A stretch of 64,000 bases of DNA from Streptacidiphilus rugosus AM-16. GTDB lineage: Bacteria; Actinomycetota; Actinomycetes; Streptomycetales; Streptomycetaceae. Both the position numbers and the translations under genes were made by a program. Shown here one piece after another: positions 3,054 through 27,674 of the stretch (its first letter is position 1; every line of letters begins with the position of its first letter). Location of the stretch: NCBI RefSeq assembly GCF_000744655.1, contig NZ_JQMJ01000004.1:1054001-1118000 (forward strand). Reading direction: 5' to 3'. The notes below the pieces were generated by a model. The model had not been told where the DNA came from, searched no databases, and worked only from the letters and a program-made list of their open reading frames with translations.

Positions 3054-3054
3054 C

Positions 3055-3102: not shown

Positions 3103-3121
3103 GGGTGCAGGCAGGAGGCGC

Positions 3122-3385
3122 TCAGCGCTGAAGGATGCAGCGCACTCCGTGGTACGACGCCATGAATCCGCTGGCGAAGTGGACGACCTCCCAGTCGGTA
3201 CAGTCCTCACCGCCGAAGGCCGTGTCGATCAGGACGCCATTGACGGTGTGCCCCTCGTTCTCCAGCAGCTTGCGCAGGTAGCCACCGGGGTCGGCGCGCA
3301 GTGCTCGTCGCTCGCCCTCGTCGAGGTCGAGGTGGTACGTCTCGACGGAGAGGTCTTCGGTGCGTGTCCGGGTGATGCGCGCCAT
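3122..3385 (-). CDS. Hypothetical 87-aa protein (possible peptide precursor)
   Basis: I do not recognise the family. The protein has a charged, helix-prone N-terminal half (residues 1-50, containing YHLDLDEGERRALRADPGGY and LRKLLENEGHTVNG) followed by a different C-terminal third with two cysteines (GGEDCTDWEV and GVRCILQR). There is no signal peptide or transmembrane segment. An AGGAAGGA Shine-Dalgarno lies about 10 bases before the ATG. The conserved-looking helical front plus Cys/Ser/Thr-bearing tail resembles a leader/core layout, which is only a hypothesis. The 452-aa gene upstream (3529-4887) is on the same strand with a 143-bp gap and could be functionally linked, but it has no recognisable modifying-enzyme motif. 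Confidence 0.6.
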   Translation of the reverse strand: MARITRTRTEDLSVETYHLDLDEGERRALRADPGGYLRKLLENEGHTVNGVLIDTAFGGEDCTDWEVVHFASGFMASYHGVRCILQR

Positions 3386-3528
3386 GAGTCGGCGTCCTTC
3401 CTGGTCAGGGTCCCCCCGACCCGGACCACCCTAGGTCCGGGTGGCGAAGGCCGCGCGTGGTGTCCGGCCGAACAGAGCAACGCAGTGCGGCGATTCCGAC
3501 GTGCTGCCATCGCCCGGCGACCGCCCGG

Positions 3529-4887: not shown

Positions 4888-4953
4888 GGGTGTCCCCTCT
4901 CCTCTCCGTCACGGTTGCCGAAGGAACTCTACGGTGCAGGCACAGCGACCTGC

Positions 4954-5877
4954 TCAGTTCGGGCCGATCAGCGCGGCGGTGGCCGCGAGGGTGGCGAGGG
5001 AGAAGGTGGTGGTGACGAGGACGGCGCGGTTGGCGAGGGCTTCGCCGACGCCGTACTCCTGGGCGAAGATGAAGGTGTTCTGCGCGGTGGGGAGTCCGGC
5101 GCAGACGACGACCGCGAGCAGTTGGGGGTGCGTCAGGTGCAGGAGCAGACCCGCCGCGAGCGCCGTGGCCGGCTGGAGGACCAGTTTCATGAGCGTGATC
5201 GCCCCGAGCTCCGCGCGCGCGACCTGCTGACGTGAGGCGCCGCTGTGGAGGGAGGCGCCCAACGCGATCAGGGCGACGGGGACGGCCGCGGTGGCCAGCA
5301 GGTTCAGTGATCCGGAGACCTCGTGCGGCACCGGCAGGTGCCCCGCGGACCAGATGACGCCGAGCACGGAGCCGAGGATCACCGGGTTGCGCACCGGCAG
5401 GCTCGCGATCCTGCGCACCCGCACCCTGCCCTCCGCGTCGCCGTGCCGGTCGAGGACGATGAGGATGACCGGCGTCACCACGAGAACCTGGAGCAGCACG
5501 ACCTCGGCGAGGAAGGAGACGCTGTGCAGCACCTGCTGGGCGATCGGGATGCCCAGGTTCGCCGAGTTGACGTACCCGGCCGCCATGCCCCAGATCGGAC
5601 GCTCGCCCGCCTTGCGGCCGAACAGCCGGCCTGCGCCGAGCCAGGACACGCCGATCGCCACGGCCGTGCTGACGCCGAACGCGCCGACGGCGCGCACGTC
5701 GAAGCTCTTGAGCGGCATCGCGGACAGGGTCAGGAAGAGCGCGGCGGGCATCGCGAGATGGAAGACGAAACGGCCCAGCACCGCGGCTGCGGTGTCGCCC
5801 AGCAGTCCGCGGCGGCGCGCCGCGTATCCGACCGCGGTCAGGACCCAGATCGGGACGAAGGCGTTGACGAGACCCAC
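4954..5877 (-). CDS. AEC-family transporter (auxin efflux carrier-like permease)
   Basis: An integral membrane permease of the AEC/bile-arsenite-riboflavin-like fold that exports or exchanges organic anions; the substrate cannot be predicted. The sequence shows about ten hydrophobic segments, starting VNAFVPIWVLTAVGYAA. Characteristic family features include FHLAMPAALFLTLSAM near the N-terminus and CAGLPTAQNTFIFAQEYG near the C-terminus. I prefer the GTG at 5877, preceded by GGGGG, giving 307 residues, the usual family length. A longer frame back to 5988 would add a Pro/Gly-rich, non-membrane 37-residue tail that is unlikely to be translated. Confidence 0.8.
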   Translation of the reverse strand: MGLVNAFVPIWVLTAVGYAARRRGLLGDTAAAVLGRFVFHLAMPAALFLTLSAMPLKSFDVRAVGAFGVSTAVAIGVSWLGAGRLFGRKAGERPIWGMAAGYVNSANLGIPIAQQVLHSVSFLAEVVLLQVLVVTPVILIVLDRHGDAEGRVRVRRIASLPVRNPVILGSVLGVIWSAGHLPVPHEVSGSLNLLATAAVPVALIALGASLHSGASRQQVARAELGAITLMKLVLQPATALAAGLLLHLTHPQLLAVVVCAGLPTAQNTFIFAQEYGVGEALANRAVLVTTTFSLATLAATAALIGPN

Positions 5878-13166: not shown

Positions 13167-13295
13167 GCGTCACACCCTATCGAGCCCCACGCGGCGGATC
13201 CGCAGGCCCGCGCGGTGGCGAGGGCGGCGAGGGCGTGCCAGTGTGACCAGGAGCGCGGAAGTAGAACAGTGACCCCAGCCGTGAGAAGACAAGGG

Positions 13296-14663
13296 ATGGG
13301 CACGATGGAACGACCCCGGATCCTCGTGGTCGGCGGCGGCTTCGCCGGCGTCGAGTGCGCACGACGGCTGGAGCGGCAGCTCGCCCCCAGCGAGGCGGAG
13401 ATCGCGATGATCGCGCCGTTCAGCTACGAGCTCTATCTGCCGCTGCTGCCGCAGGTCGCGGCCGGGGTGCTGACGCCGCAGTCGGTCGCCGTGTCACTGC
13501 GGCGGATGCTGCGCCGGACGCGGATCGTGCCGGGCGGCGCGGTCGGCATCGACGCGAAGGCGAAGATGGTGATCGCCCGCAAGATCACCGACGAGCTGAT
13601 CGCCGAGCCCTACGACTACCTGGTGCTCGCGCCCGGCAGCGTGACCCGCACCTTCGACATCCCCGGCCTGGTCGACCACGCACGCGGCATGAAGACGCTG
13701 GCCGAGGCCGCCTACGTGCGCGACCACGTGATCTCCCAGCTCGACCTCGCCGACGCGGCCACCACGCAGCAGGAACGTATCTCCCGGCTCCAGTTCGTCG
13801 TCGTGGGCGGCGGCTACGCCGGTACCGAGACGGCCGCCTGCCTCCAGCGGGTCACCGCCTCGGCGGTGCGCCGCTATCCCCGGCTCAACCCGAACCTGAT
13901 CAAGTGGCATCTGGTCGACATCGCCCCGAGGCTGATGCCCGAGCTGGGCGAGAACCTGGGCGACACCGCCATGGAGCTGCTCCGCAAGCGCGGCATCCAG
14001 ATCTCCCTGGGCGTCTCTGTCGCCGAGGTCGAGGACGAGTCGGTCAAGCTGACCGACGGGCGGGTGATCCCCTGCCGGACGCTGATCTGGACCGCGGGAG
14101 TCGCCGCGAGCCCGCTGGTCGCCACGCTCGACGCGGAGACCGTGCGCGGACGCCTGGCGGTGACCGCCGACATGCGGGTGCCGCAGTGCGACGGCGTCTT
14201 CTCCCTGGGGGACGCGGCCGCCGTGCCGGACCTGGCGGCGGGCGACGGGGCGGTCTGCCCGCCGACCGCGCAGCACGCGCAGCGGCAGGGCAAGCAGGTC
14301 GCCGACAACGTGATCGCCTCGCTGCGCGGCCAGGAGCTCAAGCCGTACTTCCACAAGGACCTCGGCCTGGTCGTCGACCTCGGCGGCGCGGACGCGGTGT
14401 CGAAGCCGATGGGCGTGGAGCTCACCGGCATCGCCGCCCAGGGAGTGGCCCGCGGCTACCACCTGATGGCGTTGCGCACCAACGTCGCCAAGGTCCGGGT
14501 GATCACGAACTGGCTGCTGAACGCGACCGCCGGGGACGATTTCGTCCGCACCGGCTTCCAGTCGCGCCGCCCTGCCAGGCTGCAGGACTTCGAGTACACG
14601 GACTCCTACCTGACCAAGGACCAGATCCGCAGCCACACCGCGTCGCTGCGGGCGAGGCAGTGA
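13296..14663 (+). CDS. Type II NADH dehydrogenase-like FAD oxidoreductase
   Basis: A peripheral-membrane flavoprotein expected to pass electrons from NADH to quinone without proton pumping. The protein has 455 residues. The FAD-binding loop GGGFAGVECARRL is at residues about 12-24; the NAD-binding loop VVVGGGYAGTETAACL lies near residue 170; the FAD-contacting GVFSLGDAAAVP segment is near residue 300. The C-terminus (TNWLLNATAGDDFVRTGF) fits the membrane-binding helical end of NDH-2. The start is ATG 13296 or ATG 13305; AAGGG at 13291 favours 13305 by spacing. It is divergent from the HipA-like gene and stands alone. Confidence 0.85.
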   Translation: MGTMERPRILVVGGGFAGVECARRLERQLAPSEAEIAMIAPFSYELYLPLLPQVAAGVLTPQSVAVSLRRMLRRTRIVPGGAVGIDAKAKMVIARKITDELIAEPYDYLVLAPGSVTRTFDIPGLVDHARGMKTLAEAAYVRDHVISQLDLADAATTQQERISRLQFVVVGGGYAGTETAACLQRVTASAVRRYPRLNPNLIKWHLVDIAPRLMPELGENLGDTAMELLRKRGIQISLGVSVAEVEDESVKLTDGRVIPCRTLIWTAGVAASPLVATLDAETVRGRLAVTADMRVPQCDGVFSLGDAAAVPDLAAGDGAVCPPTAQHAQRQGKQVADNVIASLRGQELKPYFHKDLGLVVDLGGADAVSKPMGVELTGIAAQGVARGYHLMALRTNVAKVRVITNWLLNATAGDDFVRTGFQSRRPARLQDFEYTDSYLTKDQIRSHTASLRARQ

Positions 14664-14854
14664 CCGCGGGGCCCTGACACGGGCTCCGTGACACCGGGGC
14701 TTTCGCGCCCTGGGCGGCGGGTTGCGACCTGCGCCGTCCAGGGCGAGATCATTCTGGCATGCACGCGCCAGGCTGTCACCCGTCTGCACGCAATTGACGA
14801 CGACACGATCATCCTGCCGCCACGGAACTGTCCGCACGCCCTAACTTTGCGTGC

Positions 14855-16339
14855 ATGCTCGACCACCCTTCGCCATTCGCGCAGTCCGGGCTGCCTCGCC
14901 CCTCCCGCCGTCGCATGCTCGGCTCGGCCGCGGGCGCCGCGCTGCTGACGGCCGCCGGCACGGCCGCCGCGCCCGCCGCCCGCGCCGCGACGACGGGCGA
15001 GCCGCGGAGCACCCCCTCCCGCAGCGCGTCGCGCACGCTGCCCGCCGACGCGCACGCCGCCGCGGCCGTCCGCGCGGAGTACCTGCACAGCTGGCACGGC
15101 TACACCGCGGCCGCCTGGGGCCACGACGAGGTGAAGCCGCTCAGCGGCGGGCACAACGACTTCTTCGCCATCGGGCGCACCTTCGGACTCTCCATCGTCG
15201 AGGCCCTGGACACCCTCTACCTGATGGGCTGCGACCAGGAGCTCGCCCGCGCCCGCGCCTGGGTCGAGGCGCATCTCGACCCGACCCAGAACGCCGACAT
15301 CCACGTCTTCGAGGCGATCATCCGCCTCGTCGGGGGCCTGCTCGCGGGCTACAACACCACGCACAGCCAGGTGCTGCTGGCGCGCGCCCGCGAGTTCGCC
15401 GACCGGCTGCTGCCCGCGTTCACCTCCTCCCCCACCGGGATCCCCTACACCCACGTCAACCTCCGCACCGGGCGGGCCCACGGCCGCGAGGTCCCGCTGG
15501 CCGAGGCGGGGACCAGCGTGATGGAGTTCGGGCTGCTCTCCCGGCTGCTGGGCGACGCCCGCTACTACGACGCGTCGATGCGGGCCTACCGCGCGGTGCT
15601 GGCCAGGCGCAGCTCGCTCGACCTGCTCGGCACCGTCATCGACGCGGAGTCCGGCCGCTGGCTCGACCACACCTCACGCGCGCCCGATCCGCCCGTCGAC
15701 TCCTTCTACGAGTACCTCTGGGCGGGCGGGCGGCTGCTCGGCGACAGCCGGCTGACCGGCTGGTACCGCCTGCTGACGAAGCCGGTGCTCGCCCACCAGA
15801 GCGACGTGCGCGGCGGCCGGCTCTGGTTCCACGGCGTCGACGCGGCGAGCGGCGCGCGCACCGGGCCGACGTACCAGTCCGAACTGGCCTGCTTCTACGC
15901 GGGTCTGCTGGCCAAGGGCGGCGACGTGAGCCGGGGCGCGGCGTACTTCCGCTCCTGGTCCGCCGTGCTGGCACGCCATCCGGTCCTGCCGGAGACCGTC
16001 GACTACACCACGCTGGCCGCCGTCGACTCCGGCAGCGAGCTGCGCCCCGAGTACGCCAACGCGGCCTTCGACCTGTGGCGGGTCACCGGCGAGTCCGGCT
16101 ACAAGCAGGCGGCCTGGAACTGGTTCGAGAGCCTGCGCTCGCACCACAGGGTCGCCGGCGGCTACACGATCGCCGCGTCGGTCGACGGCTCCGCCGTCCG
16201 ACTGGGCGACCTGACGCCCGGCTACTGGTTCGCCGAGAACCTCAAGTACCTGTGGCTGATGTTCTCGCGCACGCCACGCTTCGACTACCGCAACGGCATC
16301 CTCTCCACCGAGGGCAAGGTGCTCGCCGGCGCCCGCTGA
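14855..16339 (+). CDS. Tat-exported glycoside hydrolase family 47 (alpha-mannosidase-like)
   Basis: A protein of 494 residues. The N-terminus has a twin-arginine signal (PSRRRMLGSAAGAALLTAAG, about residues 16-37). The mature part shows the (alpha/alpha)7-barrel pattern of class I alpha-mannosidases: WHGYTAAAWGHDEVKPLS near the start, SIVEALDTLYLMG, then FEAIIRLVGGLLAGY, and the terminal FRTPRF-like block ending ILSTEGKVL, whose Thr is the conserved calcium ligand of GH47. GH47 enzymes trim alpha-1,2-mannose and are mainly eukaryotic, with a bacterial branch in actinobacteria and Caulobacter. A role in degrading fungal or own mannosylated proteins outside the cell is inferred. Confidence 0.85.
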   Translation: MLDHPSPFAQSGLPRPSRRRMLGSAAGAALLTAAGTAAAPAARAATTGEPRSTPSRSASRTLPADAHAAAAVRAEYLHSWHGYTAAAWGHDEVKPLSGGHNDFFAIGRTFGLSIVEALDTLYLMGCDQELARARAWVEAHLDPTQNADIHVFEAIIRLVGGLLAGYNTTHSQVLLARAREFADRLLPAFTSSPTGIPYTHVNLRTGRAHGREVPLAEAGTSVMEFGLLSRLLGDARYYDASMRAYRAVLARRSSLDLLGTVIDAESGRWLDHTSRAPDPPVDSFYEYLWAGGRLLGDSRLTGWYRLLTKPVLAHQSDVRGGRLWFHGVDAASGARTGPTYQSELACFYAGLLAKGGDVSRGAAYFRSWSAVLARHPVLPETVDYTTLAAVDSGSELRPEYANAAFDLWRVTGESGYKQAAWNWFESLRSHHRVAGGYTIAASVDGSAVRLGDLTPGYWFAENLKYLWLMFSRTPRFDYRNGILSTEGKVLAGAR

Positions 16340-16449
16340 CAGCCGGACGCCCTCGACGCTCCGTCCCCGGACCTGCGACCTTCGGACGAGACGGGCACCG
16401 GTCCCGAGGCCGGTCCCCGCAGATCGGATGCGGGCCTAGCGTGACTGGC

Positions 16450-16848
16450 ATGGAGATTCCGCAGCACCACCGACAGGCCGTCGTCCCGCACATCATGGTC
16501 GACGGCGCGGCCGAGGCGATCGCCTTCTACGAGGCGGCCTTCGGTGCCGTCGAGCACCTGCGTCTGGAGCGGGCGGACGGAGGGATCAGCCACGCCGAGA
16601 TCGCAGTGGCCGGCTCCACGCTGATGCTCAGCGACGCCGACTCGCCGGACTTCGCCGCGCCCGGCCCCGCGTGAGCCTCGGTCGTGCTGCACGTGTACGT
16701 CCCCGACGTGGACGCCGTCACCGCCCGTGCCGTCGCCGCCGGCGCGGTCGTGCTCGCGCCGGCGGCGGACATGCCCTACGGGCTGCGGCAGTCGATGCTG
16801 CGCGACCCGTTCCGGCACGTCTGGGTCCTGCTGACCCCGCTGACCTGA
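16450..16848 (+). pseudogene. VOC/glyoxalase-family protein broken by an in-frame TGA
   Basis: The frame from ATG 16450 reads MEIPQHHRQAVVPHIMVDGA and continues as a typical PhnB-like VOC protein (AIAFYEAAFGAVEHLRLE, then HAEIAVAGSTLMLSD). It stops at TGA 16672-16674. The same frame then continues without shift as VVLHVYVPDVDAVTARAVAA and ends LRDPFRHVWVLLTPLT at 16848. Both halves are needed for one VOC module of about 132 residues. The TGA is therefore a nonsense mutation or a sequencing error; recoding is less likely. As written, the product would be 74 residues. Confidence 0.85.
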
Positions 16849-16859
16849 CCGTCAGCGGG

Positions 16860-17525
16860 TCACTTCAGGCCGAGCCGGGTCTCCGCCGTGGACCAGTCCG
16901 TGGCGATGGCCTGCTGCGCGGCGGAGAGCGTCACCGTGCCGGCGCAGACGGCCGTGTGGAGCCGGGTCTCGACGGCGTCCTTCGGGTTGTTGACACCCGC
17001 TCCGGGCTTGTGGCCGGGGGACGGCGGCTCGACCCAGAGGTTGCGCGGGTCGTTCGGGTCGCCGCCCAGTTCCAGGCTGACCAGGTGATCGTACTCGGCG
17101 TCGTGCAGCGAGCCGGTGTAGCCGTAGGAGGCCGCGTTCTTGCGCTTCTCGCTGTCCGTGACCGAGGCCGGCGGCCGCACGCCGCCGGTGTAACCGCCCT
17201 TGCGGCAGATCGTCGTGGCGAGGTCGGCCTGGGTCACCTCCGGGGAGAGGGCCCCGGGGGTGCAGGCCGGGTCCGGCAGCGGCTGGCCCGCGTCGGAGCG
17301 GTAGTGGCAGCTGCCCGCGGCGGGCTGGGCGGCGACGGTGTAGTGCGTCTGCGGGCCGGGGCCCTCGGCGAGCGGCGCGGCGGCGTCACCGGCCCGCGCG
17401 CTGCTGCTCGCGGCGCCCGACGCTGACGCGTGATCACCGGAGCCCGAGGTGCCGGAGGTGTGGGCGCAGCCCGCGACGGCGGCGAGCAGCAGCGCGGAGG
17501 CGAGGGCAAGGACAGGACGGCGCAC
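16860..17525 (-). CDS. Lipoprotein with HNH-like nuclease motif
   Basis: A protein of 221 residues with a lipoprotein signal (ALLLAAVAGC, Cys near residue 20) and a Ser/Ala/Gly linker to about residue 55. The C-terminal 140 residues are conserved-looking: DLATTICRKGGYTGGVRPP, then YDHLVSLELGGDPNDPRNLW. The D-H-L-x(6-8)-GG-x-N-x-x-N-L-W arrangement matches the core of HNH/His-Me finger nucleases. Two further cysteine pairs may form disulphides outside the cell. Nuclease activity is inferred from the motif alone; GTG is the start codon. Confidence 0.65.
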   Translation of the reverse strand: MRRPVLALASALLLAAVAGCAHTSGTSGSGDHASASGAASSSARAGDAAAPLAEGPGPQTHYTVAAQPAAGSCHYRSDAGQPLPDPACTPGALSPEVTQADLATTICRKGGYTGGVRPPASVTDSEKRKNAASYGYTGSLHDAEYDHLVSLELGGDPNDPRNLWVEPPSPGHKPGAGVNNPKDAVETRLHTAVCAGTVTLSAAQQAIATDWSTAETRLGLK

Positions 17526-17717
17526 GGATGTTCCTCAGCTGTGGGTCGTGGTTGCCGGGACAGCCTGGCAGAGTCGGCGCGGCGGCGGAGCGGATTCCGC
17601 TTCTGACGGTGCGTCCCCCGTTCGCCACGCTATCCTCGCACCTCGCGGGCCTCCCGGTCACGGCCCTGACGGCACGGGCTCCCGCCGCCGTCCGGCCCGC
17701 CCGCTTCGCCCGTCCCT

Positions 17718-18260
17718 TCACACCGCGCCCGCAGGGACGACCGACGCCGGCCTGCCACGTTCCCGCTCGACGGCCCTGACGTGGCGTCGGGCCAGCCAGA
17801 GCGGGACCGCGCCGAGGACGCCGAAGGACATGTCGATCGGCAGCCACCACAGCGGCAGTCCGCGCAGCGGCCCGCAGATCGCGGCCAGCGGCAGGATCCC
17901 GGCGCAGGCGATCAGGCCGAACTCCAGCACCCAGACGTTGCGGACCGGGTCGCGCAGCGGTCCGACGAAGGCGACGGCGATGACCAGGTGCGCGAAGGCG
18001 AGCCAGTCGGTGCCGTAGGCGAGGAACGGATAGCTGCGCGCGGTGGCCGTCAGCCCGGTGTGGACGTGGCGGACCCACTCGACCCCGGCGGGGAAGTGAC
18101 CGGCGAGCGAGGAGATCGGGGAGCCGCGGTCGCTCGCCCACCACACCAGCCAGCCCGACTCGGTGACGAGCGGAAAGGCGGTCAGGCCGGCCAGCACCAG
18201 TCCAACCATGAAAAGGACGATCCACACCCGTGCGCGCCGGAGGCGCTCCCCTTGGCTCAT
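17718..18260 (-). CDS. Hypothetical integral membrane protein (180 aa)
   Basis: The start ATG at 18260 begins MSQGERLRRARVWIVLFMVG. Four hydrophobic segments follow: VWIVLFMVGLVLAGLTAFPL, then WLAFAHLVIAVAFVG, VWVLEFGLIACAGILPLAA and LPLWWLPIDMSFGVLGAVPL. The family is not recognised. It is divergent from the TetR gene, and a palindrome (18282-18295) lies 22 bp upstream of the start, so it could be regulated by the TetR protein or by a different factor. Confidence 0.7.
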   Translation of the reverse strand: MSQGERLRRARVWIVLFMVGLVLAGLTAFPLVTESGWLVWWASDRGSPISSLAGHFPAGVEWVRHVHTGLTATARSYPFLAYGTDWLAFAHLVIAVAFVGPLRDPVRNVWVLEFGLIACAGILPLAAICGPLRGLPLWWLPIDMSFGVLGAVPLWLARRHVRAVERERGRPASVVPAGAV

Positions 18261-18281
18261 GCGCCCATCATGGCGGAGTTT

Positions 18282-18295
18282 TTGAACACGTTCAA
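18282..18295. promoter_or_regulatory. Palindromic operator candidate
   Basis: TTGAAC-AC-GTTCAA has perfect 6-bp arms and a 2-bp centre. It lies between the membrane protein gene and the divergent TetR gene. Its TTGAAC arm matches the left half of the sites at 18334-18349 and 18997-19012. Confidence 0.5.
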
Positions 18296-18333
18296 CTTTG
18301 GCTCGGCCCGTGATCGCCGCGAGCCCCTTGTTC

Positions 18334-18349
18334 TTGAATGGTCGCTCAT
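18334..18349. promoter_or_regulatory. Likely TetR operator (autoregulation)
   Basis: TTGAATGGTCGCTCAT is an imperfect inverted repeat 13 bp before the chosen TetR start. It matches 12 of 16 positions with TTGAACGACCGCTCAA at 18997-19012, in front of the oxidoreductase gene. The same element before a regulator and its neighbour is the normal layout for an autoregulated TetR unit. Confidence 0.55.
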
Positions 18350-18362
18350 GTATTTTCGTGCC

Positions 18363-18947
18363 ATGCCCAGACCCCGAGAGTTCGAGCCCGACACGGTCGT
18401 GGACCAGGCCATGCTGCGGTTCTGGCTGCAGGGGTACCGGGCCACCTCCGTCGAGGACCTGGTCAAGGCGACCGGGGTGAAGCCCGGGAGTCTGTACAGC
18501 GTCTTCCCCGGCGGCAAGCACACGCTGTTCCTCAAGTCCCTGGAGAGGTACTCCAAGCTGGTCGTTCCCCAGAAACTGGGCGAACTCGCGGCACCGGCCG
18601 CTTCGCTCGCCGCCCTGCGCGGGTACTTCGACGGACTGGTGCACGACCTGCTCAGCCCGGAGGGCCGGCAGGGGTGCCTGCTGGTGAACACGGCCATCGA
18701 GAACGCCGCCGAGGACGACGAGGCCGCCGCCGTCGTGCGCGGACATCTCGCCCGCCTCGAGCACTGCATGACCACCGCACTGCGCAACGCCCGCGACGAG
18801 GGCGAGGTCCGCGCCACGGTGGACCCGTCCGGCAGTGCCAAGGCCCTGGTCGCCACCTGCCAGGGGCTGATGGTCGTGGGCAAGGCGAACCCCGACGAGA
18901 CCCTGCTGCGCGCCGTCGTCGACAACGCCTTCGCCGTACTGGTCTGA
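18363..18947 (+). CDS. TetR/AcrR family transcriptional regulator
   Basis: A protein of 194 residues. The N-terminal HTH reads MLRFWLQGYRATSVEDLVKA then TGVKPGSLYSVFPGGKHTLF at residues about 17-56, matching the TetR DNA-binding domain. The C-terminal ligand domain has the TetR_C_16/YcdC-like block GCLLVNTAIENAAEDDEAAA. Start: ATG 18363; another ATG at 18348 overlaps the operator and is less likely. It probably represses itself and the downstream quinone-oxidoreductase-like gene, from which it is separated by a terminator and an operator. Confidence 0.85.
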   Translation: MPRPREFEPDTVVDQAMLRFWLQGYRATSVEDLVKATGVKPGSLYSVFPGGKHTLFLKSLERYSKLVVPQKLGELAAPAASLAALRGYFDGLVHDLLSPEGRQGCLLVNTAIENAAEDDEAAAVVRGHLARLEHCMTTALRNARDEGEVRATVDPSGSAKALVATCQGLMVVGKANPDETLLRAVVDNAFAVLV

Positions 18948-18959
18948 CCCGACCCTTGG

Positions 18960-18986
18960 GCCACCGCCGGCGGTGGCTCTTTTTTC
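18960..18986 (+). terminator. Rho-independent terminator after the TetR gene
   Basis: CCACCGCC-GGCGGTGG (18961-18976) forms a stem and is followed directly by a CTCTTTTTT tract. It is one of the few canonical U-tract terminators in the window. Confidence 0.85.
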
Positions 18987-18996
18987 CGCCCAATAG

Positions 18997-19012
18997 TTGA
19001 ACGACCGCTCAA
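18997..19012. promoter_or_regulatory. Likely TetR operator in front of the oxidoreductase gene
   Basis: TTGAACGACCGCTCAA is an imperfect 16-bp palindrome located 15 bp before the ATG at 19028, in a position to block transcription or translation initiation. It resembles the site at 18334-18349. Confidence 0.55.
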
Positions 19013-19027
19013 GAATGGATTCCGCCC

Positions 19028-20008
19028 ATGCAGGCCATCGTCATCTCCAGCTACGGCGCCCCCGAGGTGCTCCAGCTCACCGAACTGCCCGACCCCCTGC
19101 CCGCGCCGGGCGAGGTGCTGATCCGGGTCAAGGCGTTCGGCCTCAACCACGCGGAGGCCTACATGCGCGCGGGCGCCTGGGGCGAGGTCGCGGCCGTCCC
19201 CGGCATCGAGTGCGCCGGGGTCGTCGAGGCCGACCCCTCGGGCCGACTCGCCCCCGGCACCCGGGTCGTGGCGATCCTCGGCGGCATGGGCCGCACCCGC
19301 AACGGCAGCTACGCCGAGCTGGTCACGGTGCCGGCGACCAACGTGGCCGCGGTGAGCTCCCGGCTGGGATGGGCCGAGCTGGCGGCGGTGCCCGAGGTCT
19401 ACGCGACGGCCTGGTACGGGCTGTTCGGCAATCTGGGCCTGCGCCGGGGTGACCGGGTCCTGGTGCGCGGAGCGACCTCCTCCCTCGGCCAGGCCGCGGT
19501 GAACCTGGCCGTCGACCACGGCGCGCACGTGCTCGCGACCACCCGGAACCCCGCCCACGCACCGCTGTTGAAGGAGCTCGGCGCGGAGGACGTCCTCGTC
19601 GACGACGGCCGCCTGGCCGCGCAGGTCGACCGGCGCACGACACCGGTCGACGCCGTCTTCGACCTGGTCGGCAACAGTGTCCTGCGCGACTCCCTGGCCA
19701 CCGTGCGCCCGGGGGGCCGGGTCTGCCAGCTCGGTTTCCTCGGCGGCTTCGACCCGGTGCGCGACTTCGATCCGATCGCCGATCTCCCCACCGGCGTCCA
19801 GCTCAGCTTCTTCGGCAGCGCGTTCGTCCTGGGCAGCCCCGAGTTCCCGCTCGCCGCCGTTCCCCTGGCAGCGATCTACGCCAAGGTCGAGTCGGGAACC
19901 TTCCCGGCCAAGCCGGTACGGGTCTTCCGCTTCGACGAGATCGTCGAAGCCCACCGGGTCATGGAAGCGGGAGTCGCGCTGGGCAAGATGGCCGTCACCG
20001 TCGGCTGA
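19028..20008 (+). CDS. Zinc-independent medium-chain dehydrogenase (quinone oxidoreductase-like)
   Basis: A protein of 326 residues in the MDR/QOR family, expected to reduce quinones or enones with NADPH. The N-terminal domain starts MQAIVISSYGAPEVLQLTEL, and residues about 20-60 hold the conserved GEVLIRVKAFGLNHAEAYMR. The Rossmann loop is VRGATSSLGQAAVNLAV near residue 150 and replaces the usual GGAGGVG. The structural zinc cysteines are absent, typical of QOR. TetR-controlled members of this family often respond to electrophiles or oxidative compounds; the inducer here is unknown. Confidence 0.85.
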   Translation: MQAIVISSYGAPEVLQLTELPDPLPAPGEVLIRVKAFGLNHAEAYMRAGAWGEVAAVPGIECAGVVEADPSGRLAPGTRVVAILGGMGRTRNGSYAELVTVPATNVAAVSSRLGWAELAAVPEVYATAWYGLFGNLGLRRGDRVLVRGATSSLGQAAVNLAVDHGAHVLATTRNPAHAPLLKELGAEDVLVDDGRLAAQVDRRTTPVDAVFDLVGNSVLRDSLATVRPGGRVCQLGFLGGFDPVRDFDPIADLPTGVQLSFFGSAFVLGSPEFPLAAVPLAAIYAKVESGTFPAKPVRVFRFDEIVEAHRVMEAGVALGKMAVTVG

Positions 20009-20118
20009 CGACCCCGCCGGCAGCCGGGCGCGGAGCTCCGGCGGACGCCTCACATCGTGCCGTCGGACCTCACGCCCCCAGGTGTGCAGGACATCGCGCG
20101 CCCACCCCGGAGGTCATC

Positions 20119-20226
20119 ATGGCTCGCAGCGCCTTGGACGAGATCCGCCGTCTCCCCCCGACCGGCGAAGTCCCCGGGGCGCCGCCGGACGAACCCTTGT
20201 CGCCGGAGGCGGTGAGCCGGCCGTGA
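20119..20226 (+). CDS. 35-residue protein overlapping the amidase start
   Basis: The ATG at 20119 is preceded by a good GGAGG site at 7-bp spacing. The product begins MARSALDEIRRLPPTGEVPG and ends EAVSRP. Its TGA overlaps the GTG start of the amidase (GTGA, 20223-20226), implying translational coupling. The sequence is a short helix followed by a Pro-rich tail. I do not recognise the family. Small GatC- or AtzG-like partners do precede some amidases, but this is much shorter than those. It may be a leader peptide that controls amidase translation. Confidence 0.5.
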   Translation: MARSALDEIRRLPPTGEVPGAPPDEPLSPEAVSRP

Positions 20227-21725
20227 CCGCGACCGACACCGCCCCGGCCGGTCCGGCCGGTCCGGCTTGGGAGGTGGCCGCGCTCGACGCCACCGCCCAG
20301 GCGGAGCTGGTGCGCGGCGGCGAGGTGTCCGCGACCGAGCTCGTCACCTGGGCGATCGAGCGCATCGAGCGGCTGAATCCGCGGCTCAACGCCGTGATCA
20401 CCCCGACGTTCGACGCCGCGCTGCGCGCCGCGGCCGCTGCGGACCGGGCGGCGGAGTGGGACCGCGCGCCGTTCGCCGGCGTGCCGTTCCTGGTCAAGGA
20501 CCTGGTGGCGGAGACCGCGGGTGAGCGCTTCACGGAGGGGTCGCGCTTCCTGCGGGACAACCGCTCCGGTCACGACTCCGAGCTGGTGCGCCGCCACCGT
20601 CGGGCGGGGCTGGTCATCCTGGGAAAGACGAACACCCCCGAGTTCGGCATGGTCCCCGCCTGCGAGCCGCTGCTCTTCGGTCCGACCCGCAACCCCTGGG
20701 ACACGGACCGCTCCACCAGCGGGTCCAGTGGCGGCTCGGCCGCCGCGGTCAGCAGCGGGATGGTTCCGTGCGCGCACGCCAACGACCTGGGCGGCTCGAT
20801 CCGCTTCCCGGCTTCCGCCTGCGGGCTCTTCGGCCTCAAGCCGACCCGGGCCCGCAACCCCCTGGGGCCCGAGTACGGGGACGCGGTCAGCGGCTGGGCC
20901 GTCGAACACGTGCTGACCCGCAGCGTGCGCGACAGCGCCGCGCTGCTCGACGCCACCAGCGGGCCGATGCCGGGCGACCCGTATCCGGCTCCGGCGCGGC
21001 ACCGCCCCTTCGCGGCGGAGGTCGGCGCGGACCCCGGCCGCCTGCGCATCGCCTACAGCCCGCGCACCGCCGACGGTTCGCCAGGGCACCCCGACTGCCT
21101 GGCCGCGCTCGAGGACGCCGTCAGGCTCTGCGGGGCGCTGGGCCACGATCTCGTCGAGGCGGATCTCCCCGGTACGACCCCGAGGGTGGGAGAGGCGATC
21201 GGCACCGTCTTCATGGCCGCCACGGCCTGGATCGTCCACTACTGGATCCGCCGGACCGGCCGGGTCCCCAGCCGTGACGAACTCGAACCCCTGACCCGCG
21301 CGTACCTGGAACGCGGGGAACAGGTGAGCGCCGCCGACTACCTGCTGGCCGTCGAGGAACTCCAGCGTCTCGCGCGCGGGGTGGCGGGGTTCCTGGCGGA
21401 CGTGGACCTCTGGCTCACCCCGACCATGTCCACCCCGCCCGCCCTCCTCGGCGAGATCACCTCCACCGAGGACGACCCGCTGCGGGCGGCCCGGACCGGC
21501 GGCGCGACCATCGGCTACCCGGCCGTGGTCGCCAACCTGACCGGCAACCCCGCGATGTCCGTCCCACTGTCCCGAAACACGGCGGGCCTGCCGATCGGCG
21601 TCCACTTCCTGGCCCGCTACGGCGACGAGGCCACCCTGCTCCGCCTGGCCGCACAGCTCGAATCGGCCTGCCCCTGGCCGCTGACCGCCGGAGGCGGCCC
21701 ACCCTCGCCCCGGTCGGCCCGCTAG
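20223..21725 (+). CDS. Amidase signature family hydrolase
   Basis: A protein of 500 residues hydrolysing an amide; the substrate is unknown. The Ser-cisSer-Lys triad is visible: Lys92 in PFLVKDLV, cis-Ser168 in [12 protein letters not shown] and nucleophile Ser192 in [13 protein letters not shown], with the family's normal spacing. The C-terminal half ends with the usual [13 protein letters not shown] and [13 protein letters not shown] blocks. No signal peptide is seen, so it is cytosolic. Start GTG 20223 is set by the overlap with the 35-codon gene. Its stop TAG shares the tetranucleotide CTAG (21722-21725) with the stop of the convergent hydrolase gene. Confidence 0.9.
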
Positions 21726-22510
21726 GGACGCCGGCCGACGGCGACGGCTTCCCCGATGGCGGCCGCCACCGGCCCGGGGGCCTCCACCGGGAGCAGGAAC
21801 ACCGAGCCCGGGATGGTCACCAGACGGACGTTCGGGCAGGCCGCCAGGGTGCTGCGTTCGGCGCCGGTGAGCCCGCCGTCGCCCTTCTCGGCGTGCACGA
21901 TCCAGGTCGGCGCCCCGGCCCGGCACAGGCGCTCGGCCCGGCGACGGTCCTGCCGCAACCACCGTACGTACTGCGCCAGGATCAGCCGCATCACCGCCGA
22001 GTCGTTCCTGCGGAAGTCCGCGCGCAACTCGTCGCGACGCTCCGCGGTCAACGACGCCCGCCTGAGCATCGATTCCGCTCCGCGCGCCAGGAGGGTCGCC
22101 GGGAGGCCGCCGAGTACCCGACCCAGCCCCACCAGCGCGTGGAAGAACGCCGGTTCGTCGGCGGAGGAGAGGCTGATCCCGAGCAGCACGACCGGCCCGG
22201 TGAACGCGCCCGAGGTCACCATCTCCGCCGCGACGGACGCGCCGATGCTGAACCCGACCACGACATCGGCGCCGACGGCGGCCGCCAGCTCCGCCGTGAC
22301 CGCCGCGCAGGACTCGATGCCGCAGTCCGCCAAGGGTGGCGCCCCGGCGTGTCCCGGCAACGTCGCGGCCACCAGTCGCACCCCGTCGAGCGCGGGCTGC
22401 GCCATCACCTCAGCGTAGGAAGCAGCGCTGCACATCCCTCCCGGGAGCAGCAGCACCGTTGCCTCAGCCTGTGCCGGACCGGACTCCCGCAGCTGCCATT
22501 CCAGGTCCAT
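21722..22510 (-). CDS. Alpha/beta hydrolase
   Basis: A protein of 262 residues with the alpha/beta-hydrolase pattern: VLLLPGGMCSAASYAEVM (oxyanion region near residue 20), nucleophile elbow VVGFSIGASVAAEM (G-F-S-I-G) near residue 85, and a late Asp/His region where TWIVHAEKGDGGLTGAERS supplies the acid. A canonical catalytic His in the last 40 residues is not obvious: the expected position reads IPGSVFLLPVEAPG. The protein may therefore be inactive or use a different base. It lies convergent to, and overlaps, the amidase stop. Confidence 0.75.
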   Translation of the reverse strand: MDLEWQLRESGPAQAEATVLLLPGGMCSAASYAEVMAQPALDGVRLVAATLPGHAGAPPLADCGIESCAAVTAELAAAVGADVVVGFSIGASVAAEMVTSGAFTGPVVLLGISLSSADEPAFFHALVGLGRVLGGLPATLLARGAESMLRRASLTAERRDELRADFRRNDSAVMRLILAQYVRWLRQDRRRAERLCRAGAPTWIVHAEKGDGGLTGAERSTLAACPNVRLVTIPGSVFLLPVEAPGPVAAAIGEAVAVGRRP

Positions 22511-22671
22511 CACGCATCGGCTCCCTCCCGGCTGCTCGGTGTCCGGACGCCGTTCATCTGCGCCGGCCGGCAGGTTCGGGACGACCGGGTGATTCCAGTC
22601 TGGTGCCGGCCCCGGCGCCACGCGACACGATGGCGGTCCGGAGCCGGTCTCCGGTGCTTCGGGGCACGCGC

Positions 22672-23163
22672 TCAGGCCGTGCCCGCGCGCTCCGAGCCCT
22701 CCGGCCAGACGCGGACCACCTCGACGCCCGCTGCGCGGCTGCGCTGCACCAGGTCCCCGGTACCGCCGGGCCCCGCGGGCGGGCGGCCGTCCCAGACCGC
22801 CACGACCACGTCGGCCCGGCTGAGCAGGACCTCGTTCGCCGCCTCGTAGGCCTCGTGCGAGACCTGCGCGAAGTCCAGCTCGTGGACCTCCACCGCGACG
22901 TCGACCAGCCGGTCGAAGACGGGCGCGTGGTCGGGCCTGACCTTGTTCTCCCGGTAGTGCTGGGCGGGCAGCACCACCACCAACTCTCCTCCGGCCTCGA
23001 CCAGTTCCTCGGCGAAAATCGTGTCCGCGCCCCTGGCCAGGCAGGACAGGCCCGTCAGCGGGCCCTCGGCGGCGCGCGCCGCGAGGAGCTTGCGCAGCTC
23101 CGCGCGGACCAGCTCGGCCGTCTGCTCGGTCAGATCCCTGTGCCCGGTCACCGCGAGCGTCAC
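22672..23163 (-). CDS. SLOG-like Rossmann-fold protein (DprA/LOG-type)
   Basis: A protein of 163 residues starting at the second of two adjacent GTG codons (23163), with GGGGAG 6 bases upstream. It opens MTLAVTGHRDLTEQTAELVR. The G-H-R motif and the later SCLARGADTIFAEELVEAGG then VVVLPAQHYRENK fit the SLOG superfamily of nucleotide or nucleotide-sugar sensing folds. A second half contains RADVVVAVWDGRPPAGPGGT, the acidic-Trp-Gly motif that follows in these proteins. It stands alone with no effector gene beside it. The ligand is unknown. Confidence 0.6.
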   Translation of the reverse strand: MTLAVTGHRDLTEQTAELVRAELRKLLAARAAEGPLTGLSCLARGADTIFAEELVEAGGELVVVLPAQHYRENKVRPDHAPVFDRLVDVAVEVHELDFAQVSHEAYEAANEVLLSRADVVVAVWDGRPPAGPGGTGDLVQRSRAAGVEVVRVWPEGSERAGTA

Positions 23164-23469
23164 CACTGACTCCCCTTCGTCGCAACCGTGGCCCGGTGTC
23201 TGCGGCGCTCCGCTGGGCCCCCTCTCACCTATGCCCGTCCGACGCGGGCCCGATGCCGCCGTGAGACGGGCGCGCTGCGGGCGCGCGGCGTCACCTGGTC
23301 GGGGCAGAACGGCGCACGGCCGCCGGGTGCGGGGCAAGGACGGGCGGCACCCGCGGGCCGAGACCAAAGCCCCGGCAGGAGGGGCCGGTCGCCGCGCTCA
23401 CCGGCGCCGGCTGCGGAGCAGCATGACGGTGTACGGGTTCACGCCTTCGGTTCCGGCAGGGGAGCGAGT
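23164..23469. other. Intergenic region upstream of the formate-lyase-like genes
   Basis: These 306 bp separate divergent genes. Very GC-rich, with no open frame that looks like protein. The presumed promoters of the SLOG gene and of the pfl-like operon must lie here; I could not identify an FNR, Rex or other clear redox-responsive site. Confidence 0.4.
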
Positions 23470-23787
23470 ATGACCGTCCAGTACGGCGAGTCCACGCAGC
23501 CAGGCGGCGCCTGGGAGGGTTTCCGCGGCGGGCTGTGGCGGGAGGCGATCGACGTCCGCGACTTCATCCAGGCCAACTACACCCCCTACCTGGGCGGCGA
23601 CTCGTTCCTGGCGGGCCCGACCGGGCGGACCGCAGCGGTCTGGAAGAAGATCACCGATCTCTTCCCCGAGGAGCGCCGCAGGGGCGTCCTCACCATCCGG
23701 GTCAGCGGCTACGCCGTCAACTTCGTCCGGCTGAGCCGCGAGCAGCAGCTCGACGTGCTGAACCGCACCTTCCACGGTGCGCTGTGA
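23470..23787 (+). CDS. Internally deleted pyruvate formate-lyase retaining the glycyl-radical domain
   Basis: A protein of 105 residues. Residues 14-73 match the N-terminus of pyruvate formate-lyase: AWEGFRGGLWREAIDVRDFI, NYTPYLGGDSFLAGPTGRTA and the LFPEERRRGV block. Residues 74-105 then match the extreme C-terminus, LTIRVSGYAVNFVRLSREQQ, with the radical-bearing Gly80 in RVSGYAV. Roughly 650 central residues, including the catalytic Cys-Cys pair, are missing, and the join is in frame. A GGGGAG ribosome-binding site is present and the stop overlaps pflA (GTGA). It cannot be a complete PFL. It may be a decayed gene, or a GrcA/YfiD-like spare radical subunit that works with a PFL encoded elsewhere. 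Confidence 0.8.
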   Translation: MTVQYGESTQPGGAWEGFRGGLWREAIDVRDFIQANYTPYLGGDSFLAGPTGRTAAVWKKITDLFPEERRRGVLTIRVSGYAVNFVRLSREQQLDVLNRTFHGAL

Positions 23788-24578
23788 CCGGCCGCGCCAC
23801 CACCGTCGCCGCCGCACGCACGCTCGCCGCGGTCGCCACGCGCCGCCCGGCCTGCGGCTCGGTGCACTCCTGGGACCTGTCGACGGGCGTGGACGGGCCG
23901 GGCACGCGTTTCGTCACCTTCCTGTCGGGCTGCCCGCTCAACTGCCTGTACTGCCAGAACCCCGACACGAAGAAGCTGCGCAACGGCACCCGCACCTCGG
24001 CCGACGACGTGCTGGCGGAGGCGGGCAAGTACACCGCCTTCATCCGCGCCTCGGGCGGCGGCGCGACGGTCAGCGGCGGCGAGCCGCTGCTGCAGCCGGT
24101 CTTCACCGGCGAACTGCTGAGCCGCTTCAAGCACGAACTCGGCCTGCACACCGCCCTGGACACCTCCGGCTTCCTGGGCCCGCGCGCGACCGACGCGATG
24201 CTCGCCGACACCGACCTGGTCCTGCTGGACATCAAGTCCTGGGACCCCGCCCTCTACCGCAGACTGACCGGCCGCCCCCTCCAGCCCACCCTGGACTTCG
24301 CCCGCCGCCTGGCCGCCCTCGACCAGGACGTCTGGGTCCGCTTCGTCCTCGTCCCCGGCCTGACCGACGGCGAGGACAACATCACCGGCGTGGCGAGGTT
24401 CGCTGCCTCGCTGGGCAACGTCTCCCGGATCGACGTCCTGCCCTTCCACAGGCTCGGCGCGGCCAAGTACGAAGCCATCGGCGAACGCTTCGCACTCGCC
24501 GACACCCCGTCACCCACCCCCGAACAGGTCGCCTCGGCCCGCGCCGTCTTCGCCGCCGAGGGCCTCGACGCGGTGTAA
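23784..24578 (+). CDS. pflA: Pyruvate formate-lyase activating enzyme (radical SAM)
   Basis: A protein of 264 residues. It uses S-adenosylmethionine and a [4Fe-4S] cluster to create the glycyl radical of PFL-type enzymes. The cluster motif CPLNCLYC (Cys50, Cys54, Cys57) is complete. The AdoMet-binding GGE follows in ATVSGGEPLLQP, and the conserved DTSGFLG and LLDIKSWD motifs are present. The length is typical and nothing is broken. The GTG start at 23784 overlaps the stop of the shortened pfl gene, so the two are translationally coupled and the activase would be made at the same time as the truncated radical protein. Confidence 0.9.
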   Translation: MTGRATTVAAARTLAAVATRRPACGSVHSWDLSTGVDGPGTRFVTFLSGCPLNCLYCQNPDTKKLRNGTRTSADDVLAEAGKYTAFIRASGGGATVSGGEPLLQPVFTGELLSRFKHELGLHTALDTSGFLGPRATDAMLADTDLVLLDIKSWDPALYRRLTGRPLQPTLDFARRLAALDQDVWVRFVLVPGLTDGEDNITGVARFAASLGNVSRIDVLPFHRLGAAKYEAIGERFALADTPSPTPEQVASARAVFAAEGLDAV

Positions 24579-24598
24579 GCCCTCCCGCCAACAGCCCA

Positions 24599-24624
24599 TA
24601 TACCTGTGGTGAATTCGCGGTATA
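24599..24624. promoter_or_regulatory. Inverted repeat upstream of the first secreted protein gene
   Basis: TATACC (24599-24604) and GGTATA (24619-24624) form a 6-bp inverted repeat separated by 14 bases that include GAATTC. It is notably AT-rich for this genome and lies 75 bp before the ATG at 24699, where a promoter or activator site is expected. It may be a SARP or other operator; the heptameric direct repeats typical of SARPs are not clear. Confidence 0.35.
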
Positions 24625-24698
24625 CCCGCCGGCAATAAGGTCGCGCCGCGCACTGACGAAGTTCGGTGCGACATCCCCTCCTTGCCGAAAGGGACAGA

Positions 24699-25271
24699 AT
24701 GACCACGCGACGGAAACTGGCGACCGCGCTCGCCGCGGCGGCTGCGGCCTTGCTCGTCACCGCCACTCCCGCGACCGCTTCGTCGACGCACACGCTCTCC
24801 GACACCGGAGTCGGCGGTTGCCAGAAGCCCAGCAACAACGCCTGGGGCACGTCGGGATCGTACGCGTACGTGTACATCTACGACTCGTTCACGGAGAACT
24901 CGCTGCAGAGCCTGCACATCAACACCAGCAGCATGGACGGCGACCTGTACGAGTGCAACAACGGCTACAACCGCACCGGCGGCAGCTACAGCTACTCCAA
25001 CCACTGGCAGGTGGACGGCGCGGGCATCACGACCTGCTCGATCGCCGTCGGCGGCACCGGCTGCTCGTTCGGTGGCGGCACGGTCGCCAGCGACACCTAC
25101 TCCCACTCCGGGAGTAACACCACGGGAACCGTCGCCTACAACGGCGGCGGCTGGAACATCTACACCAAATCCACGGGGATCCTCCACACCTACTCGCACA
25201 GCGCGGACGTGACCTACTCCTACAGTTCGTGGGCCACCGAAGCCGGCAGTTCGAACCAGTGGAATTTCTGA
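24699..25271 (+). CDS. Secreted four-cysteine protein A
   Basis: A protein of 190 residues with a Sec signal peptide (residues 1-28, ending TPATASS). The mature domain, about 160 residues, is rich in Gly, Ser, Asn, Thr and Tyr and predicted to be all-beta. Four cysteines occur in GVGGCQKPSNNAWG, DLYECNNGYNRTGG, TTCSIAVGG and TGCSF, enough for two disulphides. It ends NQWNF. I do not recognise the family. A close paralogue is encoded at 27099-27674, with all four cysteines and most of the sequence conserved. It is the first of a three-gene block separated by hairpins. A GAAAGGG-type ribosome-binding site precedes the ATG. Possible roles include a wall-associated or antagonistic protein; this is speculation. 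Confidence 0.75.
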   Translation: MTTRRKLATALAAAAAALLVTATPATASSTHTLSDTGVGGCQKPSNNAWGTSGSYAYVYIYDSFTENSLQSLHINTSSMDGDLYECNNGYNRTGGSYSYSNHWQVDGAGITTCSIAVGGTGCSFGGGTVASDTYSHSGSNTTGTVAYNGGGWNIYTKSTGILHTYSHSADVTYSYSSWATEAGSSNQWNF

Positions 25272-25313: not shown

Positions 25314-25353
25314 CACTGTGCACCTCATAAGCCAAGGGATCGGGCTCGATAGA

Positions 25354-27039
25354 ATGATAGTGACCATCCGTCGGTGGGCCGCGCTGCTGGCCCTGGGTCT
25401 GGCCGCGGTCGTCGTGGCGGTGTACGCGATTCCCGGCCACTCGGAAAAGGCGCCGCTGTGGGCGGTCTCGGACCAGCCCGATCCCGTCGACCACTGGCGT
25501 TACAACCTGGCGACCACCGCCGGCGACATGCTGCTGCGGACGGACACGGGTTACCGCCTGCTGTACCCGGACGGCGAGACCAGCCTCCTGACGGAGCTGG
25601 GCGCAGGCGCCGCTCTCGGCGGCGCGACGACGGCGCGGATCACCCCGAGTGATCTGCGGGACGCCTACTCGCAGTCGACCGGGCTCTTCGGGTACAAGAC
25701 CATCGATCCCCTGTACGTCACCTGGCTGACCGTCAGGTACGAGCAGGGCATCCACGACCTCTCCCTGCTCGAGCCGCGGAAGCAGGCGATCCTTCGGTCG
25801 ACCCGGCTGGCCGTCGCCAAGCTCGTTCCCACGGTCCAGCAGGGGGACCTGAACGCCGCCACGTCGCTCGTGCACGGCGTGCAGGTGCTGACCCTGCTCG
25901 GCGACACGGCTCCGCTCGCCGGTACCGGCCTGGAGCCCTGCTCCCGGCTCGCCGCCGCTGCCGGTGCCGGCCAGCTCGAGGCCGCGGACACCTGGCTGCA
26001 GCTGGCCGCTCTCGCCCGCGTCTCGTGTGACGTCCCCTTCCCACGCGCCCTCACCGATGCGGCTCACACCGCCGTCACCACGCAGTACTCGTCCCTGAAC
26101 CTTCCCGAGGTCGCCGACGCGGCCGCCGGCCTGGACATTCTGCGCACCGCAGGAAAGCGGTCCACGGCGGCTCCGGCGGTGTGCCAGGAACTGTTCGAAG
26201 AGGCGCCGGACGACGGCCTGCTGCCGAGCCACCAGCCGGTGTTCTATCTGGTGTGCCGGGACGCGCTCGATCACGCCGGTCTGCCCGTGACGCTCTCGTC
26301 CAGGGTGCGGACCAGCCTCGAACTGCAGGTCCAGCTGCACGGACAACTGGTCAGCAACGAGCGGACGGACTCCCTGGGCGTGCTCTACGCGTCGAGCATC
26401 CTGCGGGGCCTGAACTTCCGGCCTGCGGTCGTCAGCGGCACCGCCGGGGAGCAGTTCATCCCCGAGGCGGCGGACTTCGACTCCACGGTCCTCAAATTCG
26501 CCCATGGGACACCGGACTTCAGCGGGCCGGAGCTGGACAGGCTGGCCGCGACCCTCGGCGGCGACAAGGATCTGCGGACCGCGAGCATGACCGCGGCCGT
26601 GATCCTCTCCTCTCACCGGTGCTCGGCCCGGGCGGTGGACGGCCTGCGCGCGGCCTACGGTGCGACGCCGAGCCAGAACCTCGCGCTCGTCCTGCGGAAG
26701 GCCATGGTCGTCACGGCGCTGGGGCGTTGCTGGCCGGCCGGCGGCGACTGGGTGCAGGAGCAGAAGGCGAAACTGCTGGACTTCCTGGGCAGCCAGAAGA
26801 AGCAGGGCGGGCTCTTCGGCGACGATCCCGACGTGCTGCAGACCTGGTGGGGACAGGAGTCGCAGTGCCTGCTCGCAGGGCGCTCCGACATCGACGAGCG
26901 GGCCCTGCTGCCGCTGCTGCCGCCGGCGGACCCGGGCGCGTCGCAGTTCACCTTCCGCGGAGACCAGATCTACGGCGCCCTTCGGCTCACGCAGTTGCTG
27001 CACGGCTGCGGCGGCGCCTGGTGGGCGACCCGGAGCTAG
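25354..27039 (+). CDS. Membrane-anchored protein of unknown function (561 aa)
   Basis: The ATG at 25354 starts MIVTIRRWAALLALGLAAVV, a signal anchor whose positive residues place the bulk of the protein outside the membrane. The large external part is mostly helical with several scattered cysteines (for example GLEPCSRLA, RVSCDVPF, LVCRDALD, SSHRCSARA, ESQCLLAG). The helical blocks have variable length and suggest a solenoid. A QFTFRGDQIYGALRLTQLL segment lies near the end. No family is recognised. It is encoded between two paralogous secreted proteins and may act on, or display, them. An upstream in-frame ATG at 25318 is possible but lies inside the intergenic region. Confidence 0.65.
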   Translation: MIVTIRRWAALLALGLAAVVVAVYAIPGHSEKAPLWAVSDQPDPVDHWRYNLATTAGDMLLRTDTGYRLLYPDGETSLLTELGAGAALGGATTARITPSDLRDAYSQSTGLFGYKTIDPLYVTWLTVRYEQGIHDLSLLEPRKQAILRSTRLAVAKLVPTVQQGDLNAATSLVHGVQVLTLLGDTAPLAGTGLEPCSRLAAAAGAGQLEAADTWLQLAALARVSCDVPFPRALTDAAHTAVTTQYSSLNLPEVADAAAGLDILRTAGKRSTAAPAVCQELFEEAPDDGLLPSHQPVFYLVCRDALDHAGLPVTLSSRVRTSLELQVQLHGQLVSNERTDSLGVLYASSILRGLNFRPAVVSGTAGEQFIPEAADFDSTVLKFAHGTPDFSGPELDRLAATLGGDKDLRTASMTAAVILSSHRCSARAVDGLRAAYGATPSQNLALVLRKAMVVTALGRCWPAGGDWVQEQKAKLLDFLGSQKKQGGLFGDDPDVLQTWWGQESQCLLAGRSDIDERALLPLLPPADPGASQFTFRGDQIYGALRLTQLLHGCGGAWWATRS

Positions 27040-27098: not shown

Positions 27099-27674
27099 AT
27101 GACCACCACCCGCAAGACGCTGGCTCTGTGCCTCGCCACGGCGGCCTCCGCCATGCTGGCCTTCGCCGCGCCCGCGCAGGCCGCCAGTCCGGCGACCCTG
27201 TCCGACACCGGAGTCGGGGGCTGCGTGAGGCCCAGCAACAACGCCTGGGGCACCTCCGGCTCGTACGCGTACGTCTACATCTACGACTCGGCCACGGAGT
27301 ACTCGCGTCAGAGCGTGCACATCAACTCCAGCAGCATGGACGGCGACCTGTACGAGTGCAACAACGGCTACAACCGCACCGGCGGCAGCTACAGCTACAC
27401 CAACCACTGGCAGGCGGACGGCACCGGCATCACCTCGTGCACGATCGCCGTCGGCAGCACCGGCTGCAGCATCTCCTCGGGAACCGTCGCCAGCAACACG
27501 TACTCGCACTCGGGGAGCAACACGACCGGCACCGTCTCCTACAGCGGCGGCGGCTGGAACATCTACACCAAGTCCACCGGCTATCTGGACACGCTCGCGC
27601 ACAGCGCGAACGTGACCTTCTCCTACAGCTCGTGGGCCACTGAGGCGGGAAGCGCGAACCAGTTCAACTTCTGA
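27099..27674 (+). CDS. Secreted four-cysteine protein B, paralogue of protein A
   Basis: A protein of 191 residues with a Sec signal peptide (MTTTRKTLALCLATAASAML through APAQAA). The mature part aligns end to end with protein A at 24699-25271. The blocks SNNAWGTSGSYAYVYIYDS, SSMDGDLYECNNGYNRTGG and TYSHSGSNTTGTV are nearly identical, and the four cysteines are in the same places. It ends NQFNF. The start ATG has an AAAGGGATGAG site. Differences are concentrated in the signal peptide and in short loops, which indicates duplication followed by selection to keep the fold. The function is unknown. Confidence 0.75.
   Translation: MTTTRKTLALCLATAASAMLAFAAPAQAASPATLSDTGVGGCVRPSNNAWGTSGSYAYVYIYDSATEYSRQSVHINSSSMDGDLYECNNGYNRTGGSYSYTNHWQADGTGITSCTIAVGSTGCSISSGTVASNTYSHSGSNTTGTVSYSGGGWNIYTKSTGYLDTLAHSANVTFSYSSWATEAGSANQFNF

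Follow-up and report, generated by a model that had tools for sequence, protein, structure and literature searches.

The 105-amino-acid open reading frame (ORF) described here is very probably the remnant of a full-length second pyruvate formate-lyase (PFL) gene, which lost about 1,953 nt in frame, in the lineage leading to the strain, and now most likely has no selected function. It lies in the window, by which is meant the whole stretch of 64,000 nucleotides of Streptacidiphilus rugosus AM-16 that was analysed. The window allele is an ordinary pfl deletion allele, and it is probably recent. A recent deletion allele had been named as the alternative reading in an earlier note on this DNA, and it is favoured by the full-length gene of G009 (a relative of the same genus), by a second intact pfl, by the singleton status of the short form and by the recurrent partial loss of pfl.

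Structure of the 105-aa ORF

The locus comprises the following features:

23457..23468, + strand: purine-rich stretch upstream of the start, likely ribosome-binding site, common to the full-length G009 gene
23470..23787, + strand: 105-aa pfl remnant, both PFL ends fused in frame
23470..23688, + strand: N-terminal PFL piece, 73 codons (residues 1-73), 83% identity to the G009 orthologue and 65% to the genome's own intact copy
23686..23691, + strand: deletion joint GTC/CTC, set against full-length relatives
23689..23784, + strand: C-terminal PFL piece, 32 codons (residues 74-105), equivalent to E. coli PFL 728-759, 94% identity to G009
23707-23709, + strand: radical-loop Gly80, inside the C-terminal PFL piece
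23784..24578, + strand: pflA, PFL-activating radical SAM enzyme, 264 aa, intact (TIGR02493; Radical_SAM over its cut-off)

The ORF runs from ATG 23470 to TGA 23785-23787. In a phmmer comparison with E. coli PFL (1h16), residues 13-68 were aligned with PFL 9-64 and residues 66-102 with PFL 720-756, and these two separate stretches indicate that it is not a chance ORF. The proposed fusion of the two PFL termini with the motif RVSGYAV was confirmed, with 73 and 32 residues aligned to the PFL ends; the motif occupies residues 77-83 and was the same in all 75 of the C-piece matches counted. The window shares with PflB (TIGR01255; E. coli 1h16) both protein ends, the radical loop and the pfl-pflA order, whereas the ORF is without 651 residues that include the active-site cysteines, and it scored 93.6 bits against TIGR01255, for which the cut-off is 994.2. 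The claim that about 650 residues with the catalytic cysteines are missing thus holds, at 651 codons (1,953 nt), provided that the ancestral gene was as long as the syntenic G009 gene. Because the active-site cysteine part is gone, the short protein cannot be a PFL.

No stop or frameshift interrupts the ORF, and the start, the ribosome-binding stretch and the adjoining pflA are intact, as the earlier note had described together with the 4-bp overlap with pflA; AGGGGAGCGAG upstream of the start is also present at the full-length G009 gene. Residue 43 is Gly, where 80 of 92 matches have Asp and 6 have Gly, and residue 89 is Ser, where 64 of 75 matches have Thr and 11 have Ser; both are weak hints. 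No promoter or terminator was found in a scan of 23150-24750, which may not fit streptomycete promoters.

An intact PFL system in the same genome

The window corresponds to 1.054-1.118 Mb of a 7.1-Mb contig, in an assembly of 9.0 Mb and 4 contigs. The Gly_radical and PFL-like searches of the genome gave one match each, and the two matches fall in a single full-length gene (about 873-875 kb of the same contig); the 105-aa remnant fell below the threshold of the genome-wide Gly_radical search, in which no separate GrcA was matched. The product of the full-length gene has 755 aa, with the Cys-Cys site (IACCVSAM) preserved; adhE precedes the gene and its own pflA follows it, at a distance of about 200 kb from the remnant. 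The full pflB elsewhere in the genome for which a check had been suggested was therefore found, and the presence of this intact adhE-pfl-pflA locus identifies the window locus as a second copy.

Origin of the short allele

Of the 60 relatives searched, G009 matched best, and it carries a full-length pfl (L034 8206-10473) and pflA (L034 10521-11303) at the same syntenic place; this is the outcome of the comparison of lengths at the locus that the earlier note had proposed. Window segments 13292-17520 and 22688-23196 map, in order, to L034 2979-7195 and 7383-7891, and segments 23457-23697 and 23692-24574 map, in order, to L034 8192-8433 and 10381-11302. The N-terminal piece is an orthologue of the G009 gene, since it is 83% identical to that gene and 65% identical to the genome's own intact copy. 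The G009 stretch that is missing from the window measures 1,953 nt, a multiple of three, and the full-length syntenic gene thus identifies the window allele as an in-frame deletion of about that length. Judged from the genome's own intact copy, both sides of the joint may have had CTC, which makes a deletion by short homology or end joining plausible. Upstream, window 17520-22688 is a stretch of about 5.2 kb without a counterpart at the syntenic G009 place, where the flanks lie about 190 bp apart (L034 7195-7383).

The short form appears to be confined to this strain. In the protein database it is the single member of its cluster, on one contig. A match to the 105-aa ORF was present in 6 of 14 genomes of the genus, and the full 1-105 span was covered only in this genome; matches were likewise present in 141 of the 394 family genomes, where the 1-105 span was found only here among the matches listed, which were ordered by E-value with the strongest first. 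The literature search gave no on-topic paper on split or truncated PFL among the matches listed.

The occurrence of the short form in one genome only (in the family, among the matches listed) is also what would be expected if a full-length pfl had been collapsed during assembly. However, the joint is clean and in frame, on the 7.1-Mb contig of a 4-contig assembly, and the N- and C-terminal pieces are each nearer to the G009 gene than to the genome's own copy. Moreover, that other copy is only 65% identical in the N-terminal piece, which renders a collapse between the two copies unlikely, and an assembly artefact is accordingly judged improbable.

Other shortened pfl genes in the family

Partly deleted pfl copies are recurrent in the family. 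Thirteen further loci were picked for short open frames or one-end matches, and in this non-random sample only part of pfl was present in 8 (L036, L041, L044, L154, L155, L160, L162 and L163). L036, from the same genus, holds a partial pfl and a pflA in pieces across different frames, and in L162 PFL 7-113 is followed directly by pflA from residue 42. At this deletion in L162 (2006-3005) the search gave an open frame of 331 aa. In L156, L157 and L159 pfl is nearly whole, and the breaks may be sequencing errors; in L158 pfl was aligned over its length, and in L161 it is cut by the contig end.

Products that retain both PFL ends were also found. In the protein database search with the 105-aa ORF, the best 120 of 1,529 matches were taken, and at least five of the 119 other matches (P0009, P0010, P0011, P0036 and P0058) resemble it in that the PFL N-terminus is fused to a C-terminus with the Gly loop. 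The five joints differ from one another and none equals the window joint, so these products seem to have arisen independently. About half or more of the Gly_radical profile is retained in P0009 and P0010, against only the last 14 of its 106 positions in the window ORF. When P0036 (source name Streptomyces sp. NBC_00038) was used as query, matches were obtained in 142 of the 392 genomes of another genus of the family, and none of the matches listed spanned the whole query.

As a control, an equivalent chimera of both ends was built from the genome's own AdhE and used as query, and both ends were found in 2 of 83 matches, P0123 and P0168. The difference from the 5 of 119 for PFL (among the matches listed) gave a Fisher p of 0.70, in a comparison that is rough because very unequal numbers of matches passed and the PFL set was the best 120 of 1,529. 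The comparison thus does not point to any preference for PFL deletions of this shape, and a recurrent class of mini-PFL was rejected, as the joints differ and the adhE control rate is similar (2/83 against 5/119). P0168 is an AdhE remnant of 87 aa with both ends joined, on a 297-kb contig with the source name Micromonospora matsumotoense.

Selection on the remnant and state of pflA

The Ka/Ks values against G009 were 0.24 for the N-terminal piece (73 codons), 0.14 for the C-terminal piece (32 codons) and 0.20 for pflA; the two pieces are short stretches and the deletion is undated, and all three values are comparable with those of the full-length pairs, inside their range or close to it. Low values of this kind, like those of functional pairs, speak against a relic without deciding the matter, as do the unbroken ORF and the intact start, ribosome-binding stretch and pflA.

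The earlier note had described the adjacent activase as intact, and this was borne out: window PflA scored 280.9 bits against TIGR02493 (PFLA equivalog; cut-off 231.75), and its GCPLNCLYC stretch is the CX3CX2C motif. The gene starts with GTG at 23784, overlaps the 105-aa ORF by the 4 bp GTGA and ends with its stop at 24578. The overlap is not peculiar to the short allele, since the intact pfl copy of the same genome also overlaps its pflA by GTGA. With G005 as outgroup, window pflA had 18 private amino-acid changes and its G009 orthologue 4, and with four further outgroups the ratios (window:G009) were 14:4, 16:5, 7:4 and 13:6. The window gene thus changed faster by count with all five outgroups, weakly in two (7:4 and 13:6), and this higher count fits a mild relaxation of constraint. 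Window PflA deviates at only 2 columns of at least 90% conservation, as many functional relatives do, which suggests that it is probably still active.

In another explanation the short protein would serve as a decoy or brake, binding PflA through its loop and lowering the activation of the intact PFL. The loop on which the activase acts is intact, and the overlap of the 105-aa ORF with pflA implies that both would be made together. Against this, no recurrence or conservation of the short form was seen and no sequence feature points specifically to such a role, so that it is considered very improbable.

Beyond pflA, window 24699-25271 and 27099-27674 encode two small proteins (190 and 191 aa) that are probably secreted; 150 aligned residues are identical between them, and they flank an ORF of 573 aa (25318-27039). 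A Pfam search with the 190-aa protein (24699-25271) gave no family over the cut-off.

Comparison with GrcA/YfiD

The 105-aa ORF resembles GrcA/YfiD, GrcA2 and GrcA3 in being a small protein that ends in a Gly-radical loop and a C-terminal helix; unlike them, it begins with the PFL N-terminus and is without the strand-helix ahead of the loop. Membership in the GrcA group fails on two features, the model scores and this strand-helix. The scores were 35.5 bits for GrcA (TIGR04365; cut-off 170), 58 for GrcA2 (NF008341; cut-off 145) and 45.9 for GrcA3 (NF038360; cut-off 158), all far under the cut-off, and GrcA membership by NCBIfam and Pfam was rejected; the Gly_radical model gave 16 bits (cut-off 22.2) over profile positions 93-106 of 106. 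YfiD residues 61-127 share the fold of PFL 693-759, and the strand contacts between YfiD and PFL are considered likely to be critical in holding the radical loop in place (PMC8683613). The 105-aa ORF is without the strand-helix that precedes the Gly loop (E. coli PFL about 693-727) and keeps only the equivalent of 728-759. The strand motif is retained in all 16 stand-alone radical ORFs of viral loci, some of which are near-copies.

The spare-part explanation holds that a GrcA-like protein arose by internal deletion, that PflA makes the radical on Gly80, and that the protein replaces the oxygen-cleaved C-terminus of the intact PFL while the N-terminal piece docks. The intact RVSGYAV loop, the overlap with an intact pflA and the low Ka/Ks of both pieces are consistent with it, as are the intact PFL available as a partner in the cell and the failure of the Gly_radical genome search to match another GrcA. 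In addition, PMC9326890 cites activity with the activase for a heptapeptide that contains the loop glycine, by which a radical on Gly80 made by PflA would be chemically possible. However, the strand proposed to secure the loop is missing, the three GrcA scores are low, and the short form was seen in no other genome searched (in the family, among the matches listed). Moreover, the AlphaFold model of the 105-aa protein gave no confident fold (mean pLDDT 46.9, pTM 0.31, alignment of 10 sequences). The new GrcA-like radical subunit suggested in the earlier note is thus unsupported; GrcA-like function of the 105-aa protein appears unlikely from its sequence, and the spare-part explanation as a whole is unlikely. 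Since an intact pfl is present elsewhere and the part found in known repair proteins is missing, the 105-aa ORF is most likely a relic.

The scan of viral sequences (24 loci) revealed whole PFLs and small GrcA-type proteins, and a phage counterpart of the mini-PFL was rejected. L133 and L134, which resembled mini-PFLs by span, were also rejected; on these viral contigs (28-5138) a small radical ORF of 77 aa (2866-3099) is followed by a separate, broken pfl core (3153-5138), and an ORF of 773 aa looks like an anaerobic ribonucleotide reductase. The viral locus L141 (IMGVR_UViG_3300028591_000126, about 1406-3711) carries a split PFL, in which a core of about 680 aa that has no Gly-radical domain is followed by a separate radical protein of 77 aa. 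The latter scored 156.7 bits against GrcA3 NF038360 (cut-off 158), and for the core the best relative of solved structure is 38la, a formate acetyltransferase of 687 residues.

Proposed history and meaning of the remnant

For the favoured relic, the synteny with G009 suggests that a once full-length second pfl lost an internal stretch of about 1,953 nt with the frame kept. The intact adhE-pfl-pflA locus about 200 kb away is present in the genome, and the loss would have been tolerated because of it. That the ORF stays open would be due to chance, as a deletion preserves the frame in one third of cases, or to the short time that has probably passed since. The short protein, if made, would have no PFL function and most likely no selected function, and the adjoining intact PflA may continue to act on the intact PFL or may itself be in the course of being lost.

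There is also a slight chance that in-frame deletions of a redundant pfl occasionally yield a protein of N-terminus and loop that is charged by PflA, and that the ORF is a newborn carrier repairing or regulating the intact PFL here. If this were true, the locus would capture one way in which GrcA-type proteins could come into being; and if the short protein took the radical, it would be a carrier of the glycyl radical that lacks the anchoring strand, and a natural starting point for work on how GrcA-like spare parts originated. As found, the remnant is of little import: a redundant fermentation gene was shortened in a soil-type actinomycete.
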